Shown: in pieces, positions 58,217 to 64,000 of the stretch
Layout of the letters: each line of letters begins with the position of its first letter
How positions within the stretch are numbered: position 1 is the first letter of the stretch
Assembly: GCF_014495845.1 (NCBI RefSeq)
Contig: NZ_CP061080.1
Coordinates: forward strand, 5,074,001 to 5,138,000
Source: Aquibium microcysteis
GTDB lineage: Bacteria; Pseudomonadota; Alphaproteobacteria; Rhizobiales; Rhizobiaceae
Length of the DNA stretch: 64,000 bases
Reading direction: 5' to 3'
The notes under the pieces: model-generated
What the model was told of the DNA's origin: nothing
Seen by the model: the letters and a program-made list of their open reading frames with translations, nothing else
Database searches by the model: none
Position numbers and translations under genes: made by a program

Positions 58217-60190
58217 CTACCAGGCGAGGATTCCGCCGGCGCGCGCGCTGATCATGCCCGTGGCGCTGACCGCCATGCCTCCGGTCACATGGAGGCTCTC
58301 GTTCAGTTTGCCTCCCATGTTGAACCCCATCGCATAGGTGCCGTCGAAGCTCGAGGTGTTCATGCCGACGGCGAACGTCTTGCCGTCCGGAACCCAGAAG
58401 TTCCCGAGCGCGAGGGCCATGGCCACGCCCTGCCGGTTCTCCCCGATCTGGTCGTAGAGCCCGCGATCGGCAGCCAGGTTCCCGCTCGCGTCGGTCGTCA
58501 CGAGCGATTTCGGACCGACCTGCCGCATCGTGCTCGTGTAGGAGGTCAAGCCGGGCATGGTGTAGGTGTTGGATGCGACGCCGAAGACCTGCTGGCGCTC
58601 CAGGGTCGTCGTGGCCCCGGCACCGAACGCCGCCGAGCCTGCGTGAGCCGCCTGGGCCTGTGCGCCCACGGCGGTTGCGGAATTGCCGGAGGCGACGGAC
58701 GCCTGGCCCATCGCGGTGGCACTGGTCCCGGATGCCATTGCGTTCTGGCCGGTGGCCGTCGACCGTGAACCGAGCGCAAGGGCGGACTCGCCGATCGCTG
58801 TCGAAGCATCCAGCTCGGCATAGGAGTCCCTGCCCAGCGCCGTGGACGAGGCACCATAGGCCACCGCGAACTGACCGAACGCGCTCGCTCCCTCGTCGAA
58901 CGCCAGCGCGCCCTGCCCGACGGCCGTCGTGTCGTCGGCGACTGCCGAGGCGAGCTGCCCGACGGCGGTCATGTTCTCGCCATTCAGGAAATTGCCGGTG
59001 GTGGGGTCGAATGCCTGCGCGCCGTCGCCGATTGCCGTGTTCCGGGTCCCGGCGGCGATCGCGCCTGAACCGAACGCGGCGGTCTGGCTCCCTTGCGCCT
59101 GCGCATCGGTCCCGACGGCGGTCACGTTCGTCCCGTCGGCAAGGGCATTCTGGCCGAGCGCCGACGCATTGGTACCGGTGGCGCGCGCGTCGGCGCCGAA
59201 GGCCGTGGTGTTGGTGCCCGCAGCCCGCGAGTCGGCGCCGACCGCCGTCGCATTCGTGCCCTCCGCATAGGCGGCGTCGCCGATCGCGATCGCGTCCGGG
59301 GAGAGCGCCTGCGCGCCGTTTCCGATGGCGATCGCGCTGACGTGGGCCGTGAAGGCATTGGCTCCGCCGAAGCCGGCGCCTCCGACCCCGCCGCCGCCGA
59401 TGGTGATGCCGTCGAAGGAGTATTCGACGGGCACGTCCGCATCGGCATCGAAATCGGGGTTGCCGAAATAGCCGAGCGTGACGCGTCCGTCATGCGCCGA
59501 CACGCCCATCTGCGCGATCACGTTCGCATGGGTCATCAGGCTGCCGGTGAACTCGCCCTCGCAGCTCGGCAAGGCGAACGTCTGGACGCCGTCGAAGATC
59601 AGGCTGCCCGCCTGCAGGCCGACGCCCACGGCCTGGACGGCGTTCGACGCCGATTCGCTCAGCCCCGTGAAATCCAGCGACGTGAGGATTTCCGACGTCA
59701 CGCCGGCCGCTTCGGTGGCGACGCCCGCCGCGTCGAACGCGTAGCGGAAAGGCTCCAGCTGTTCGGCACAGGACGCGGTCGCGGCCAGCGTGTTGGGATC
59801 GCCGGCATTGTCGACCGAGGTCTGGATGGCGTTCAGCGCGGCCTCGCGGGCCGCCTTCGCATTGGCCACCTGCGTGGGATAGTTCGCATCCCAGACGCAG
59901 GTGGGGGCGTCGGGGTCGCACGGCGAACCGCCGCTGCCGTCGTCCGGCGGATTCTGGCGCAGATTCGTCTCGGTCTCCGCCGCAGCCTTGTAGGCGTCGA
60001 GTTCAGTCGAGAGATCGAGCGTGGGCGAGCCGCCCAGCACGGACGTCACGACGAAGGACGGCGGATCGACATCCGGTTTGCCGGGGGTCGACGCGATGTA
60101 CTGCGCCGACGCGGGTGTCGTGGCCTGGCTCAGGGCCGCAAAAGAAAAGACCGCGCCGGCAATGCCGGGAATCCAATTCCGATCGTGCAT
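58217..60190 (-). CDS. YadA-like trimeric autotransporter adhesin
   Basis: This 657-aa protein has a signal peptide (MHDRNWIPGIAGAVFSFAAL, cleavage near ASAQ). An N-terminal region of about 230 residues contains two short cysteine pairs (SPCDPDAPTCVW; another with SCAEQ and LPSCEG). About 18 YadA head repeats follow, of the form AxAxGxxAxA (AIAIGNGAQA, AIGDAAYAEG, ATAVGADSRA), at residues 295-535. The end is a YadA membrane anchor (GVAMALALGNFWVPDGKTFA to the terminal W). It is short for the family, with almost no coiled stalk. Confidence 0.9.
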   Translation of the reverse strand: MHDRNWIPGIAGAVFSFAALSQATTPASAQYIASTPGKPDVDPPSFVVTSVLGGSPTLDLSTELDAYKAAAETETNLRQNPPDDGSGGSPCDPDAPTCVWDANYPTQVANAKAAREAALNAIQTSVDNAGDPNTLAATASCAEQLEPFRYAFDAAGVATEAAGVTSEILTSLDFTGLSESASNAVQAVGVGLQAGSLIFDGVQTFALPSCEGEFTGSLMTHANVIAQMGVSAHDGRVTLGYFGNPDFDADADVPVEYSFDGITIGGGGVGGAGFGGANAFTAHVSAIAIGNGAQALSPDAIAIGDAAYAEGTNATAVGADSRAAGTNTTAFGADARATGTNASALGQNALADGTNVTAVGTDAQAQGSQTAAFGSGAIAAGTRNTAIGDGAQAFDPTTGNFLNGENMTAVGQLASAVADDTTAVGQGALAFDEGASAFGQFAVAYGASSTALGRDSYAELDASTAIGESALALGSRSTATGQNAMASGTSATAMGQASVASGNSATAVGAQAQAAHAGSAAFGAGATTTLERQQVFGVASNTYTMPGLTSYTSTMRQVGPKSLVTTDASGNLAADRGLYDQIGENRQGVAMALALGNFWVPDGKTFAVGMNTSSFDGTYAMGFNMGGKLNESLHVTGGMAVSATGMISARAGGILAW

Positions 60191-60456
60191 CGAGCCCCCA
60201 GCTCACGGCTGCGTTTCGAGCGACTAAACCTTGTATTGCAGGTGATTACTGTTACGCGGGCCGGTCGTATTCCGGCCTCTTGCCCGGCTTTCGATGGAAA
60301 CTGTTCGAGCCGGGTTCACGAACAGCTTACACTTTGGTTAACGGATGACAAGCCCCGTCGCGCGCGTCGGCGGAGCCAGGGCTTTCCCTCGCGCCTTGCC
60401 GGCCCGTCGGGCTCTGGAGCCGGGATCGGCGGTCGTCTTGCGGAACGGCCGGACCG

Positions 60457-61044
60457 TCAGTCGAGCGGGCGGGGCATGGGGATCGGAACGGTCGACGGCG
60501 CGGGCGCGGCGGCGGTCGGGGGCGCCGCCGGCGCCGGAACCTGGATGACCTCCTGCCTCGGCTCGGGGGCTGCGACCGAGATCCCGAACAGGCGCCAGCG
60601 TCCGCCGATCGGCTCGAAGACCAGATCGAAGTTGACCTGTTTCGGCCGGCTCGGAAAAATGCCGGTGAGCCTGAGCTTGCTGCCGTCGTCGGTCATTTCC
60701 GCCCGCGTGAACTGCGGCGCGAGGATCAACGTGGGGGCGAGGTTGAGATCCTGGCTGCGAAGGGGCGCGAAGATCCCGGCAAGCTTCGCCGGATCGTTGA
60801 CGGCGGCGAAGTTGGGCGACGCGTAGTCGCGGAGCACGGTATAGTTGCCCGTCAGATTCGCCTGGTTCAACGCGGCGATCGCATCCCGCACGAGAATGAC
60901 CGCGAGGTTCCCGTCGACCTGCCGGGCCTGTGCCCCCGCGGGCCGGCTCCCGCCGATCGCTGCCGCCGCCAAGCCGGCCAGCACGGCCCGGACGAGAAGC
61001 GGACGACGGCTGCGTCTCCCAGGCGCCTGCCGGCCGTCGCTCAT
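60457..61044 (-). CDS. Exported protein with NTF2-like/unknown domain
   Basis: This 195-aa protein starts at ATG 61044 after GGGGAGAGG. An Arg-rich N-terminus and hydrophobic run (RRPLLVRAVLAGLAAAAIGG, cleavage near AGAQ) make a signal peptide. The middle (IAALNQANLTGNYTVLRDYA to LVFEPIGGRWRLFGISVA) has the spacing of a small NTF2-like alpha+beta fold. A Pro/Ala-rich tail follows. Function unknown. Its start overlaps the stop of the preceding frame as ATGA. Confidence 0.7.
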   Translation of the reverse strand: MSDGRQAPGRRSRRPLLVRAVLAGLAAAAIGGSRPAGAQARQVDGNLAVILVRDAIAALNQANLTGNYTVLRDYASPNFAAVNDPAKLAGIFAPLRSQDLNLAPTLILAPQFTRAEMTDDGSKLRLTGIFPSRPKQVNFDLVFEPIGGRWRLFGISVAAPEPRQEVIQVPAPAAPPTAAAPAPSTVPIPMPRPLD

Positions 61045-61382
61045 GCCGGCCTCTCCCCGCCGCGTCCCAGGGGTGCCTCGCGAACGGCGAAGCGTGAGAA
61101 ACCCCACCGCTGCAGGCCCGTCCGGCCCCGCCCGACGTCTTCGCGCTTCCCGGTGGCCGTCGATCGGACCCGCCCTGCGGGACCGGTCCGGGCCGCCGGG
61201 GCCGCCCCGGCTCCGGTGCGCCGTGTCTTCGGCTTTCTGCCCGGTCCGTGCCTGCCGCGCCTGACCGCTACCTCCCGCCCGATCAGGACGAGCCGGTCGT
61301 GCGCGGCTTCCGGTCCCCCGGATGGCGAGGCCTCCGCGATGAGCGCGTCCGCCGCCCGCTCGTCTGTGATCCTGTCCCCCAT
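61041..61382 (-). CDS. Hypothetical protein, possibly coupled to the exported protein
   Basis: A 113-codon frame (MGDRITDERAADALIAEASP) ends in an ATGA overlap with the exported protein. The N-terminal 40 residues look protein-like; the rest is Arg/Ala/Gly-rich and of biased composition. No good ribosome site is seen. It may be real or chance in high-GC DNA. Confidence 0.35.
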   Translation of the reverse strand: MGDRITDERAADALIAEASPSGGPEAAHDRLVLIGREVAVRRGRHGPGRKPKTRRTGAGAAPAARTGPAGRVRSTATGKREDVGRGRTGLQRWGFSRFAVREAPLGRGGERPA

Positions 61383-61549
61383 GGGGCGACCCTAGCCGTT
61401 GGTGCGCGGAACGCAATGGCGAAGAAACGGGCGCACCAACGTCCCCGCGGCGGCAAGGTCCGCGCCGAAACGGCGGAGACCTCCAGCTCGACCACAGCGC
61501 TTCCGCACCACATCGACGCCCCCACCCGACGACCGATCCTCGACCTCTC

Positions 61550-61745
61550 CTGAGGCCAGACAATAAAAAGCCCGGTTCTTGATGCGGTCGATCGCTTCGC
61601 GCAACACGAAGAGCGGGACGAGGAACCACTCACATGGGATGACCGGCTGGCCGAATCGATCCTCAATCTCGAACTCCAGGCGGGGCGGCACCGAAGACGC
61701 GGTGGATGAGGTTTTCCAGCCGTGGGGAAATCCTGCAATACACTG
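61550..61745 (-). pseudogene. Decayed GIY-YIG nuclease C-terminus
   Basis: On the minus strand one frame reads PRLENLIHRVFGAA (61,725-61,685) and, after a frameshift, the next frame reads LEFEIEDRFGQPVIPCEWFL, then VPLFVLREAIDRIKN, to about 61,552. Together these match the conserved C-terminal part of GIY-YIG/T5orf172-type nuclease proteins (ENLxHRxF followed by an EIEDRFG...EWFxVPL block). The N-terminal nuclease half is absent. It marks the edge between the host chromosome and the CRISPR region. No gene is recognised between 61,745 and 62,110. Confidence 0.5.
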
Positions 61746-62115
61746 TCAATGGAAAGTGCTTCACCCACAAGCAGCGGATTCCTTGAATCAATGGCGTTTT
61801 TCACGCTGCACCCTCTCTGGCAGTGTTTCTCAATCAGAACCTGGTCAAAAGAAGAGAGGTCGGGAACGCCTTGCAGTCGGTCGGGTGGTGATGCCGCCGG
61901 AGTTTCCACAGGGGTACGAGTGGAATGCGAGTGCAAGCCAATGGCCGCGCGGGAGCCGCAGCCTTTCCTTCACCAAGGAGCTGCCGTTCGCGCCGACAAG
62001 AGGATGAAAAAGCTCCCCACTGATTTCATTCAGAAGGAGGCTTCTCGCTTCACCGAGCGAACCGTTGGCCAGGACCAAAGACTGAGCAGCGGGTTGTTCT
62101 GAAGCAGCTCCCAAC

Positions 62116-62201
62116 AGAAAAGCCCCCGCCGTGGCGAGGGCCTTATTTGGTGCCGTCGAGGCTTGTTAACAGCCAGACCGCGTTTTCTGAACTGCTGCTA
62201 T
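62116..62201 (-). ncRNA. Type II CRISPR tracrRNA (predicted)
   Basis: Starting near 62201 on the minus strand, about 86 nt read as an anti-repeat (GCAGTTCAGAAAACGCGG, then TCTGGCTGTTAAC), a short nexus-like hairpin (GCCTCGACGGC) and a 9-bp GC-rich terminator hairpin ending in TTTT. The anti-repeat is matched by a repeat-like sequence at 62423-62458. The gene lies 340 bp upstream of cas9 and is transcribed away from it. Known type II-C tracrRNAs have this order: anti-repeat, nexus, terminator. The true repeat lies outside the window, so pairing is inferred from the lone repeat copy. Confidence 0.75.
62122..62141 (-). terminator. Rho-independent terminator of the tracrRNA
   Basis: On the minus strand GCCCTCGCC and GGCGGGGGC pair (one T-G wobble) around AC, followed at once by TTTTCTGTT. 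On the plus strand the U-run is poor, which fixes the direction. Confidence 0.8.
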
Positions 62202-62207
62202 CCGTCT

Positions 62208-62236
62208 AATATACCGTCCCGGAAGCGAATGAGCAA
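62208..62236 (-). promoter_or_regulatory. tracrRNA promoter (-35/-10)
   Basis: On the minus strand TTGCTC (62236-62231) and TATATT (62213-62208) are separated by exactly 17 bp. The predicted start, 7 nt after the -10, falls at A62201, the first base of the anti-repeat region. Confidence 0.7.
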
Positions 62237-62422
62237 GGCTTTCCGGTGTGCATACAGAATCTGACACTCTGTCCCGCAGGGACCGACATGCGATTGAACG
62301 TCGATGGTGGCGCGTTCCGGTGAGACGGATAGCAGTCTAGCAGAGATGCTGTGGCCCAAACCAGTATCGCGTTTTTGCGCACTACGGACATCGCATTCGC
62401 GTTGAAAAATGTTAGTCCCGTA

Positions 62423-62458
62423 GTTGCCGCTGGACCGCGTTTCTGAATTGCGCGAAAG
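62423..62458 (+). repeat. Single degenerate CRISPR repeat-like sequence upstream of cas9
   Basis: GTTGCCGCTGGACCGCG followed by TTTCTGAATTGC matches, with a few changes and two single-base gaps, the reverse complement of the tracrRNA anti-repeat (62165-62200 on the plus strand: GTTAACAGCCAGACCGCG, then TTTTCTGAACTGC). Only one copy is present and it sits 80 bp upstream of the cas9 ATG. It may be a stray degenerate repeat, or a guide-like element for control of cas9. Confidence 0.6.
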
Positions 62459-62538
62459 GACAGCTGCTCCTAATGGAGCGGCAGTCCTCTTGATTTATAG
62501 TCACTGGTGTGGCCAACAAACGATGGGGAGGCACCGGG

Positions 62539-64000
62539 ATGCGGAAGAAGCTGTTCTCGTTCGACATGGGCACCAACAGTATCGGCTGGTGCGTCTTCAA
62601 TCTTGGTCCGAGCAATGAGCCGATCGCGATCGTCGATGCGGGTGTCCGCATCTTCTCCGATGGTCGCGAGCCCAAATCGGGAAACTCGTTGGCGGAGGGT
62701 CGCCGGATGGTGCGCGGCATGGCCCGCCGGCGCGACCGCTACAAGCGCCGCCGAAAGGCCGTGCTGCGGACGTTGACGGAGTACGGTCTGATGCCGTCGG
62801 ATCCGGGGGCGCGTGCGGCGCTGGTGGCCGAGACCAATGATGCGCGACGGGATCGGCCGGCGAACGACGTCTATGCGCTGCGTGCGCGTGGGCTGGACGA
62901 GAGACTGCCGCTCCACCATCTCGGCCGCGCCTTGTTTCACCTTCAGCAGCGGCGCGGGTTCAAGAGCAACCGCAAGGCCGATCGCCGGTCGAATGACAAC
63001 GAGAAGGGCGCCATCGCGATCGGCGAGGATCGCCTGCGCACCGCCATGCATGAAGCCGGCGCGCGCACCCTGGGCGAATTCCTGGCCGGGCGGCGCGGAA
63101 CCGATCCGCTCGGGCGAGGCGGTGTGCGCGTGCGCATCGACGCTGCTGCTTCGTCGGAAGGAGAAGGACGGCGCGAAAAGCCCGGCTACGATTTCTATCC
63201 TGTTCGTGCGATGCTGGAAGACGAGTTCGACCAGATATGGGCCAGGCAGGCCGAGTTCTGGCCCGAAGTCCTGACGGACGATCGCAGACGGCATCTGTTC
63301 CGCGTCATGTTCTACCAGCGGCCGCTGAAGCCGCCGGTCGTCGGCAAATGCAGCTTCAATCCGTCCGAAATGCGGCTGGCGAAGGCGCACCCGCTCTTCC
63401 AGACGTTTCGCCTCTACAAGGAGGTGAACGAACTCGAACTGGTGATGCCGGACCAGTCACAGCGGAAACTGACGAAGGACGAGCGCGACGCCCTCGTGAT
63501 CCATTTGCGCGGCGTCCGCAGCGCGGGCTTTCCGGCTTTGCGCAAGACGCTGAAACTCTCCGAACGGGGGACCCGCTTCAACAAGGAGCACGAAGGTCGC
63601 GAGAAGCTCCTCGGCGACGAGATCCACGCGGCCATGTCCGATAAGGCGCTTTTCGGCAATCGATGGGCTGCGATGCCGATGGACCGACAGTGGGAAACCG
63701 TCGAAAGGCTGCGCGAGGAGAACGATCCTCTCGCCCTTCATCGGTGGCTCGTCGAGCAAGCCGGACTGTCCGACGAGGCGGCCGAAAAGGCGGCGGATGC
63801 GAAGCTCCCCGAAGGTTACGGGCGACTCGGACGAACCGCTCTTGCGACTATGTTGGAAGAGCTGAAGGCAGACGTCATCACGGAGGCCGAGGCCGCGCGC
63901 CGTGCCGGCTACGACCACGCCCTTGCGCGCCATGGCGAAGCCGTCGAGAGGTTGCCCAAGTACCAGGAAATCCTGGAGCGCCGCATTCCCCCGGGCACCG
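62539..64000 (+). CDS. cas9: Cas9 endonuclease, type II-C-like (3' end outside window)
   Basis: The first 487 codons are present. RuvC-I is FSFDMGTNSIGW with catalytic Asp9. The Arg-rich bridge helix is near residues 55-75 (RRMVRGMARRRDRYKRRRK). LFHLQQRRGFKSNRK (132-146), YDFYPVRAMLEDEFDQIW (217-234) and FYQRPLKPPVVGKCSF (258-273) are typical of the compact II-C Cas9 recognition lobe. The HNH domain and RuvC-II/III lie beyond 64,000. The ATG at 62539 follows GGGGAGG by 8 bp and was preferred over the in-frame GTG 62509. Guided by crRNA:tracrRNA, Cas9 cuts invading DNA; the tracrRNA gene lies just upstream. Confidence 0.95.
   Translation, partial: MRKKLFSFDMGTNSIGWCVFNLGPSNEPIAIVDAGVRIFSDGREPKSGNSLAEGRRMVRGMARRRDRYKRRRKAVLRTLTEYGLMPSDPGARAALVAETNDARRDRPANDVYALRARGLDERLPLHHLGRALFHLQQRRGFKSNRKADRRSNDNEKGAIAIGEDRLRTAMHEAGARTLGEFLAGRRGTDPLGRGGVRVRIDAAASSEGEGRREKPGYDFYPVRAMLEDEFDQIWARQAEFWPEVLTDDRRRHLFRVMFYQRPLKPPVVGKCSFNPSEMRLAKAHPLFQTFRLYKEVNELELVMPDQSQRKLTKDERDALVIHLRGVRSAGFPALRKTLKLSERGTRFNKEHEGREKLLGDEIHAAMSDKALFGNRWAAMPMDRQWETVERLREENDPLALHRWLVEQAGLSDEAAEKAADAKLPEGYGRLGRTALATMLEELKADVITEAEAARRAGYDHALARHGEAVERLPKYQEILERRIPPGT

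Follow-up and report, generated by a model that had tools for sequence, protein, structure and literature searches.

A type II-C cas9 locus of Aquibium microcysteis lacking a detected array and probably carrying a solitary guide unit of the cas9-directed kind

The window analysed here, 64,000 nucleotides (nt) of Aquibium microcysteis (bases 5074001-5138000; the genome is a single contig of 6.11 Mb with a completeness of 100), ends inside a type II-C CRISPR–Cas locus in which a solitary CRISPR RNA (crRNA)-like unit lies between cas9 and a divergent trans-activating CRISPR RNA (tracrRNA). The locus resembles known II-C systems in the family, size and domains of its Cas9 and in a tracrRNA that fits the repeat of its relatives; it differs from them in that cas1 is cut short, cas2 and the array were not found, and an additional solitary unit stands upstream of cas9. 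Comparison with related loci suggests that this is probably an array-less II-C locus with a solitary unit of an autorepressing kind, belonging to, or descending from, units that in the relatives carry guides matching their own cas9 gene. The unit, whose repeat begins at 62423, went unmentioned in the earlier note on this DNA, which had been made from the sequence alone and had described the Cas9 and the tracrRNA.

Solitary units in related loci match their own cas9 gene

Protein searches gave matches in 31 of 297 genomes of the family, 43 of 397 of the order and 61 of 385 of the class, the window's genome being counted each time, and within the genus Cas9 was found in just this one of the 5 genomes searched. 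Wide flanks were taken for many, not all, of the family and order loci; L002 denotes the window locus with the sequence read past the right edge. We scanned upstream of cas9 for repeat-like stretches (at least 12 of 20 positions) whose guide matched an NGG site in the region from −450 to +120 of cas9 with a score of at least 8.5. Such a unit was present in 13 of 61 loci, where decoys with shuffled repeats would lead one to expect 0.75; L036 and L091 are apparently the same contig (32,939 bases each), which makes the 61 scanned loci 60. Two scan matches (L035 and L124) were dropped as probably due to chance, leaving 11, and L054, L096 and L058 were added, giving 14 unit loci in the family and order: L041, L042, L047, L048, L053, L054, L057, L058, L059, L094, L096, L099, L100 and L118. 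The row for L120, which has no cas9 N-terminus, is doubtful or dropped.

The guides of these 14 loci match their own cas9 promoter or 5′ region through pairing runs of 10–14 nt, some of them with wobbles, and their sequences vary among loci yet track their own targets. When the protospacer adjacent motif (PAM) condition was lifted, the best match had a shuffle p of 0.018 or less in 14 of 14 loci, with an NGG PAM at the best site in 12. The exceptions are L058, where the PAM is GGT, and L054, where the best site lies inside cas9 and has no NGG; an NGG site near the L054 start codon pairs with one mismatch (p 0.0025, which, like the p values of its test series, is the best of six register shifts). 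The 17 units entered in this unconstrained test were hand-picked after inspection. A first unconstrained look at 10 loci had placed an NGG at the best site in L034, L041, L042, L048, L053, L057 and the window, and not in L054, L056 or L046. As a negative control, 914 array-spacer guides from 43 loci were scored, and three reached 8.5 or more and one 10 or more. The PAM was also sought through array spacers: one array compared with phages gave no match, and one compared with plasmids gave four records at 60–80% identity.

Two further loci have repeats upstream of cas9 in other arrangements. L111 holds, at −273 to −170 of cas9, a near-perfect repeat (alignment score 32) with a partial second copy, possibly a mini-array, and L055 has arrays on both sides of cas9, with 8 and 7 repeats upstream in the cas9 direction and 7 downstream.

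Two anatomies and a possible brake on cas9

The units come in two forms. In eight loci (L042, L047, L058, L059, L094, L096, L099 and L100) the tracrRNA motif follows the start of the repeat at 80–97 nt on one and the same strand, so that guide, repeat and tracrRNA could be parts of a single RNA; in the folds of seven of these, 2 to 8 of 11 guide bases are unpaired, and in L042, L047, L094 and L096 the anti-repeat is paired with the repeat that bears the guide. The remaining six loci have a separate unit, which in L041, L053, L054, L057 and L118 stands at a distance of 129–197 nt with a hairpin after it; in L048 the tracrRNA is on the other strand. On a Cas9 tree of 53 rows that includes 13 of the 14 unit loci, the anatomy labels need 11 changes, where shuffled labels need 12.5 and 16 of 200 shuffles were as low; the sister loci L042 and L118 differ in anatomy.

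We propose that the relatives' unit would be made either as a separate short crRNA or joined to the tracrRNA in one molecule, which would be a natural single guide. Its transcript would load Cas9, and the 10–14-nt guide would direct the protein to the promoter or 5′ region of its own gene, in most cases next to an NGG. A guide match of 10–14 nt is expected to permit binding by Cas9 and not cutting, so Cas9 would repress its own gene and the unit would act as a brake. Autorepression of cas9 through Cas9 binding is thus a prediction from guide–target anatomy, whereas the unit family itself, taken as a sequence anatomy, is strongly supported by the relatives.

The unit in the window

Like the units of the relatives, that of the window consists of a guide, a repeat and a stable hairpin (Table 1). 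It sits between tracrRNA and cas9 and pairs, by prediction, with the window's own anti-repeat: the duplex reaches −40.6 kcal/mol, against −17.7 ± 3.4 kcal/mol for 500 shuffles with a minimum of −33.7 kcal/mol. The repeat together with its 3′ hairpin (62424-62495) folds with a z of −3.3, and the consensus scan called no terminator at the hairpin. The weak hairpin before the guide has an energy of −2.2 kcal/mol (z −1.9; 15 of 200 shuffles were as good). Among NGG sites, the best target of the guide has a p of 0.011. Close to this target, TGACACTCTGTCCC at 62262 resembles the cas9 promoter of L041, TGACAATCCGTCCC, a resemblance that is not significant alone. For a possible inversion of the tracrRNA–cas9 interval relative to L041, alignments spoke neither for nor against: beyond the repeat (41), alignments did not exceed those of shuffles (95% at 22; best 21 forward and 19 inverted).

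Table 1 Features at the right end of the window
Feature	Position	Strand	Basis or remark
Guide-like 11 nt, TTAGTCCCGTA, with a weak hairpin before it	62412..62422	+	Sequence
Solitary repeat; first 20 nt equal to the family repeat, followed by a one-base deletion and a single mismatch	62423..62451	+	Repeat search
GC-rich terminator-like hairpin after the repeat, weak T tract	62458..62487	+	Fold
Best candidate target of the guide; 8 nt, one wobble, PAM GGG at 62279	62265..62278	+	Weak
cas9, 5′ part	62539..64000	+	Gene ends past the window at G000:C1:5139892; 1117 amino acids (aa), no stop
tracrRNA, ~85 nt; anti-repeat, nexus-like stem, terminator-like hairpin 62122-62141, T run (TTTT) 62118-62121	62118..62201	−	Sequence; ends inferred
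Anti-repeat core	62176..62196	−	Complements positions 11-31 of the L043/L118 array repeat without a mismatch
Putative tracrRNA promoter, TTGCTC-17-TATATT	62208..62236	−	Read from sequence
Inverted repeat, perfect 13 bp, left arm	62195..62207		Overlies the tracrRNA 5′ end
Inverted repeat, right arm	62323..62335		Partner of 62195..62207

Cas9 and tracrRNA

Both the Cas9 and the divergent tracrRNA are real, and they are ordinary for this II-C lineage. The part of cas9 inside the window (62539-63998, 486 aa) matches TIGR01865 (Csn1/Cas9) over profile positions 3-482 of 1070 (E 1.7e-75), and the full-length protein, read past the edge, carries HNH_4, RuvC_III and Cas9_a, that is, an HNH and a split RuvC domain, which bears out the earlier reading of a II-C-like N-terminus with Asp at 9. 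Its motifs are FDMGTNSIGW at residue 8 (with the Asp at 9), IHIELAREL at 530, DIDHILPWS at 615 and HHAIDAAVI at 771, within which we take the catalytic residues to lie. Neither csn2 nor cas4 appeared among nine L002 frames scanned with Pfam, no search having been aimed at them. The closest relative is L041, sister to L002 on the Cas9 tree with a support of 100; its Cas9 is 78% identical, and its cas9 differs from the window gene at 57% of synonymous sites. Between the two, the ratio of non-synonymous to synonymous divergence (dN/dS) is about 0.15 for cas9 (0.159/1.07), and lineage-specific changes number 16 in the window line versus 19 in L041, so the intact window cas9 gives no evidence of a new function.

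All the tracrRNA elements that had been read on the minus strand, from the TTGCTC and TATATT boxes 17 bp apart through anti-repeat, nexus-like stem and GC hairpin to TTTT, are present. The consensus scan flagged neither a promoter nor a terminator for the tracrRNA, so we infer its +1 and its 3′ end. L041 shares with the window an identical tracrRNA stretch of at least 63 bp, which begins at the terminator and reaches into the anti-repeat, with two differences further on inside the anti-repeat; since cas9 differs at so many synonymous sites, this identity places the tracrRNA beyond chance, and its region (62114-62203) folds with a z of −2.4. An Rfam scan of 60000-64000 gave four sub-threshold matches, which we take to be chance. 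The tracrRNA motif CTTGTTAAC occurs 97–539 bp upstream of cas9 with the same orientation in 51 of 61 loci, among them that of the window; in L048 it is on the other strand. A short divergent tracrRNA is therefore the normal state in the lineage, so that the length of some 86 nt given in the earlier note stands, at about 85 nt, while its description as unusual does not. The perfect 13-bp inverted repeat at the tracrRNA 5′ end (Table 1) may be an operator, a relic of a duplicated anti-repeat or chance.

Arrays of the relatives carry the family repeat GTTGCCGCTGGACCGCGTTTTCTGAACTGCTAAGCT (L034 and L043) and variants of it; almost all of these arrays stand downstream of cas9 and are directed toward it, and L055 and L103 have upstream arrays too. 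The pairing of an array repeat with 62201-62165, which the earlier note had set as a check, is found by proxy, the window having no array of its own: the window anti-repeat and the L043/L118 array repeat form a predicted duplex of −50.2 kcal/mol.

Probable loss of the adaptation module and the array

A whole CRISPR locus had been expected to continue past the window edge, which the sequence after cas9 does not support. There, a 141-aa frame matches just positions 3-123 of the 283-position Cas1 model, and cas1 stops near residue 130, where by eye the sequence runs into the end of an element that we take to be of the IS3 family of insertion sequences and then into an IS21-type element. The latter matches Pfam IstB_IS21 in one frame and rve plus Mu-transpos_C_2 in another, and ends near L002 positions 5425 and 7915; it has no target duplication, which suggests a deletion beside the element, and its far flank is not cas1. 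The break region corresponds to about 5140335-5142915 of the chromosome (G000:C1; L002 5335-7915). A phage-type integrase at L002 11880-13556, about 6.5 kb past the break, indicates that the flank may be a mobile island; a comparison of the window end with plasmids gave no match.

No repeat array was found in L002 or in the 10 kb after cas9, and two family-repeat patterns run over the whole 6.1 Mb chromosome with up to three mismatches matched only the anti-repeat and the 62423 site (reversed control patterns gave 0 and 2 matches). Nor was cas2 found at the II-C locus, the sole Cas2 (PF09827) match of the genome being near 535 kb at another locus. Two further Cas1 matches each adjoin an array with an unrelated repeat: at about 532000-537000 (L131), GTCTCAATCCGCGTGAAATGCGGCTGAGGTCCAGAC lies beside Cas1 in a 748-aa open frame and Cas2, and at about 4300000-4303200 (L132), GCGTCCCCCGCACACGCGGGGATGATCCG, presumably I-E-like, lies near the Cas1 match.

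In L041, cas1 is broken as well, at a different point; comparison with L118 by eye puts the break near residue 230, and a contig end is close by. Over 128 alignment columns, cas1 of L002 and L041 has a dN/dS of 0.07, or strong purifying selection for most of their divergence, and cas1 was therefore kept until recently in both lines. With so recent a loss, an intact cas9 in the window needs no new role, and long-term domestication of Cas9 without an array, which we had considered, is weakened by the same conservation. A repeat search of the L041 draft genome with the 27-nt unit pattern found no array; it matched just the unit from which the pattern came and one other, solitary copy, at three mismatches. 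That lone II-C-family repeat (L164, G241:C35:7294-7320) lies, by eye, at the end of a phage-like gene and resembles a Racr-type solitary repeat unit.

Elsewhere in the window, a 657-aa frame on the minus strand (58217-60190) has a serial AVG.GA.A-type repeat that, judged by eye, recalls a trimeric autotransporter adhesin head.

Readings of the window unit

We favour the view that the II-C locus whose cas9 half closes the window would have been stripped recently of adaptation and memory, with Cas9 and tracrRNA intact and a unit related by descent to the cas9-directed units of the relatives. As a working brake in the window itself, the unit is weakly supported by its sequence, and a number of results count against this view. 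The window unit is on the strand of cas9, whereas the other 16 of 16 inspected units are opposite to it. Without the PAM condition the p of its best target rises to 0.21, and the target score of 7.3 is equalled or exceeded by 20 of the 914 array guides. Searched genome-wide as 11 nt plus NGG with up to one mismatch, the guide TTARTCCCRTANGG has no site, and its reversed control has 4; the consensus scan gave no promoter for the unit. Among the relatives, L056 (p 0.80) and L111 (p 0.05) join the window as units without a significant target among the 17, and L046, which was tried and omitted from that set, has no clear target. The single-RNA anatomy is clouded by L099 and L100, whose folds pair a second inner repeat copy, and not the guide-bearing one, with the anti-repeat, and by L059, whose fold shows no pairing of repeat and anti-repeat. 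In the wider class a unit appeared in 0 of 29 loci (decoys 0.80), under a stricter cut and with a family and order repeat panel that distant forms could escape; we therefore claim the unit for the order only.

Much of this would also be expected if the unit were a relic, a once-autoregulatory element now dead in a locus that decays after the loss of its array, and we give this alternative a real chance, somewhat short of even. The truncated cas1 and the missing cas2 and array fit it, as do the base deleted from the repeat, the inverted orientation and the weak target; turned round and with so poor a target, the unit may indeed be decaying. The recent loss that the cas1 dN/dS implies fits it too, because an intact cas9 then needs no new role. 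It is opposed by the predicted pairing of repeat and tracrRNA, which is still strong, and by a cas9 that is free of stops and in which lineage-specific changes are not in excess. The unit may be a relic, a living but weak brake, or a brake that acts on some other target; of these we lean towards the first two.

A narrower proposal, that the only II-C guide RNA left to the window Cas9 is regulatory and that Cas9 would have become a stand-alone regulator after immunity was lost, seems doubtful to us. L041 points the same way, with no array by repeat search, its own break in cas1 and a promoter-matching unit.

It is about equally unlikely that the repeat copy is a leftover of a former array, or an ectopic insertion, with no regulatory history. 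A single copy without a clear target does look like the spent end of an array, but the window copy lies upstream of cas9, reads with it and is followed by a hairpin, unlike the downstream arrays of the relatives, and promoter-matching units occupy the same interval in those relatives. Still less probable is a plain II-C locus with its tracrRNA and an array elsewhere, for example on an unsequenced plasmid. Cas9 and tracrRNA are intact, and arrays can lie far from cas genes; against this, the family-repeat patterns match just the anti-repeat and the unit in the chromosome, and the other Cas1 matches and the sole Cas2 match adjoin unrelated repeats. A chance resemblance of the 62423 stretch to the repeat can be dismissed, given 20 of 20 identical leading bases and a duplex energy below that of all 500 shuffles.

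Discussion

Guide RNAs that act on cas genes have been described for other systems. Shmakov and colleagues are said to have reported, in 2023, the CreR cas-regulating RNAs and standalone repeats. The units discussed here share with CreR a solitary repeat and a guide with partial complementarity to the cas promoter; they differ in that the partner would be Cas9 with its tracrRNA. For the II-A system of Streptococcus pyogenes, Workman and colleagues reportedly described, in 2021, tracr-L as a natural single guide. The portion of PMC11417352 available to us likewise describes tracr-L as such, and states that a crRNA with an 11-nt match represses Pcas through Cas9. On that portion of the text, the likeness lies in a guide of about 11 nt to the cas promoter beside a GG PAM and, in eight relatives, in a guide and repeat 5′ of the tracrRNA on the same strand. 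The present units differ in being II-C and of other sequence, and in standing apart from the tracrRNA in six relatives and in the window, where unit (+) and tracrRNA (−) are on opposite strands and so do not form one RNA. A 2026 review, in the excerpt at hand (PMC13131331), names SpyCas9 and the CreRs of types I-B, I-E and V-A, II-C being unnamed in that sentence.

Other guide-like RNAs tied to Cas9 occur outside arrays. According to partial texts, the II-C scaRNA of Neisseria meningitidis acts on efeUOB mRNA (PMC13431127, 2026), and noncanonical crRNAs take their guides from host transcripts (PMC8224270); here, by contrast, a dedicated repeat copy stands beside cas9, and the relatives show a DNA-type match with a PAM. 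Racr solitary repeat units, as the extract of PMC10651486 has it, sit in viral genomes away from cas genes; they too are lone repeat copies, whereas the window repeat lies inside a cas locus. Among the literature matches listed (title or start of abstract, with subscription papers mostly outside), none dealt with short-guide cas9 autorepression in II-C.

RNA-guided autorepression is thus known, from the parts of the sources cited, for II-A Cas9 (PMC11417352) and for the effectors of I-B, I-E and V-A (PMC13131331), and the relatives suggest that it extends to II-C of this order. The two unit anatomies are scattered over the Cas9 tree, down to sister loci, which leads to testable questions: is a brake with a short guide something that all Cas9 lineages eventually require, and does the boundary between binding and cutting fix the length of 10–14 nt? 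From the guide–target pairs, a PAM of the NGG type is predicted for this group of Cas9 proteins. In this view the window would be a natural case of such a locus after the loss of its array.

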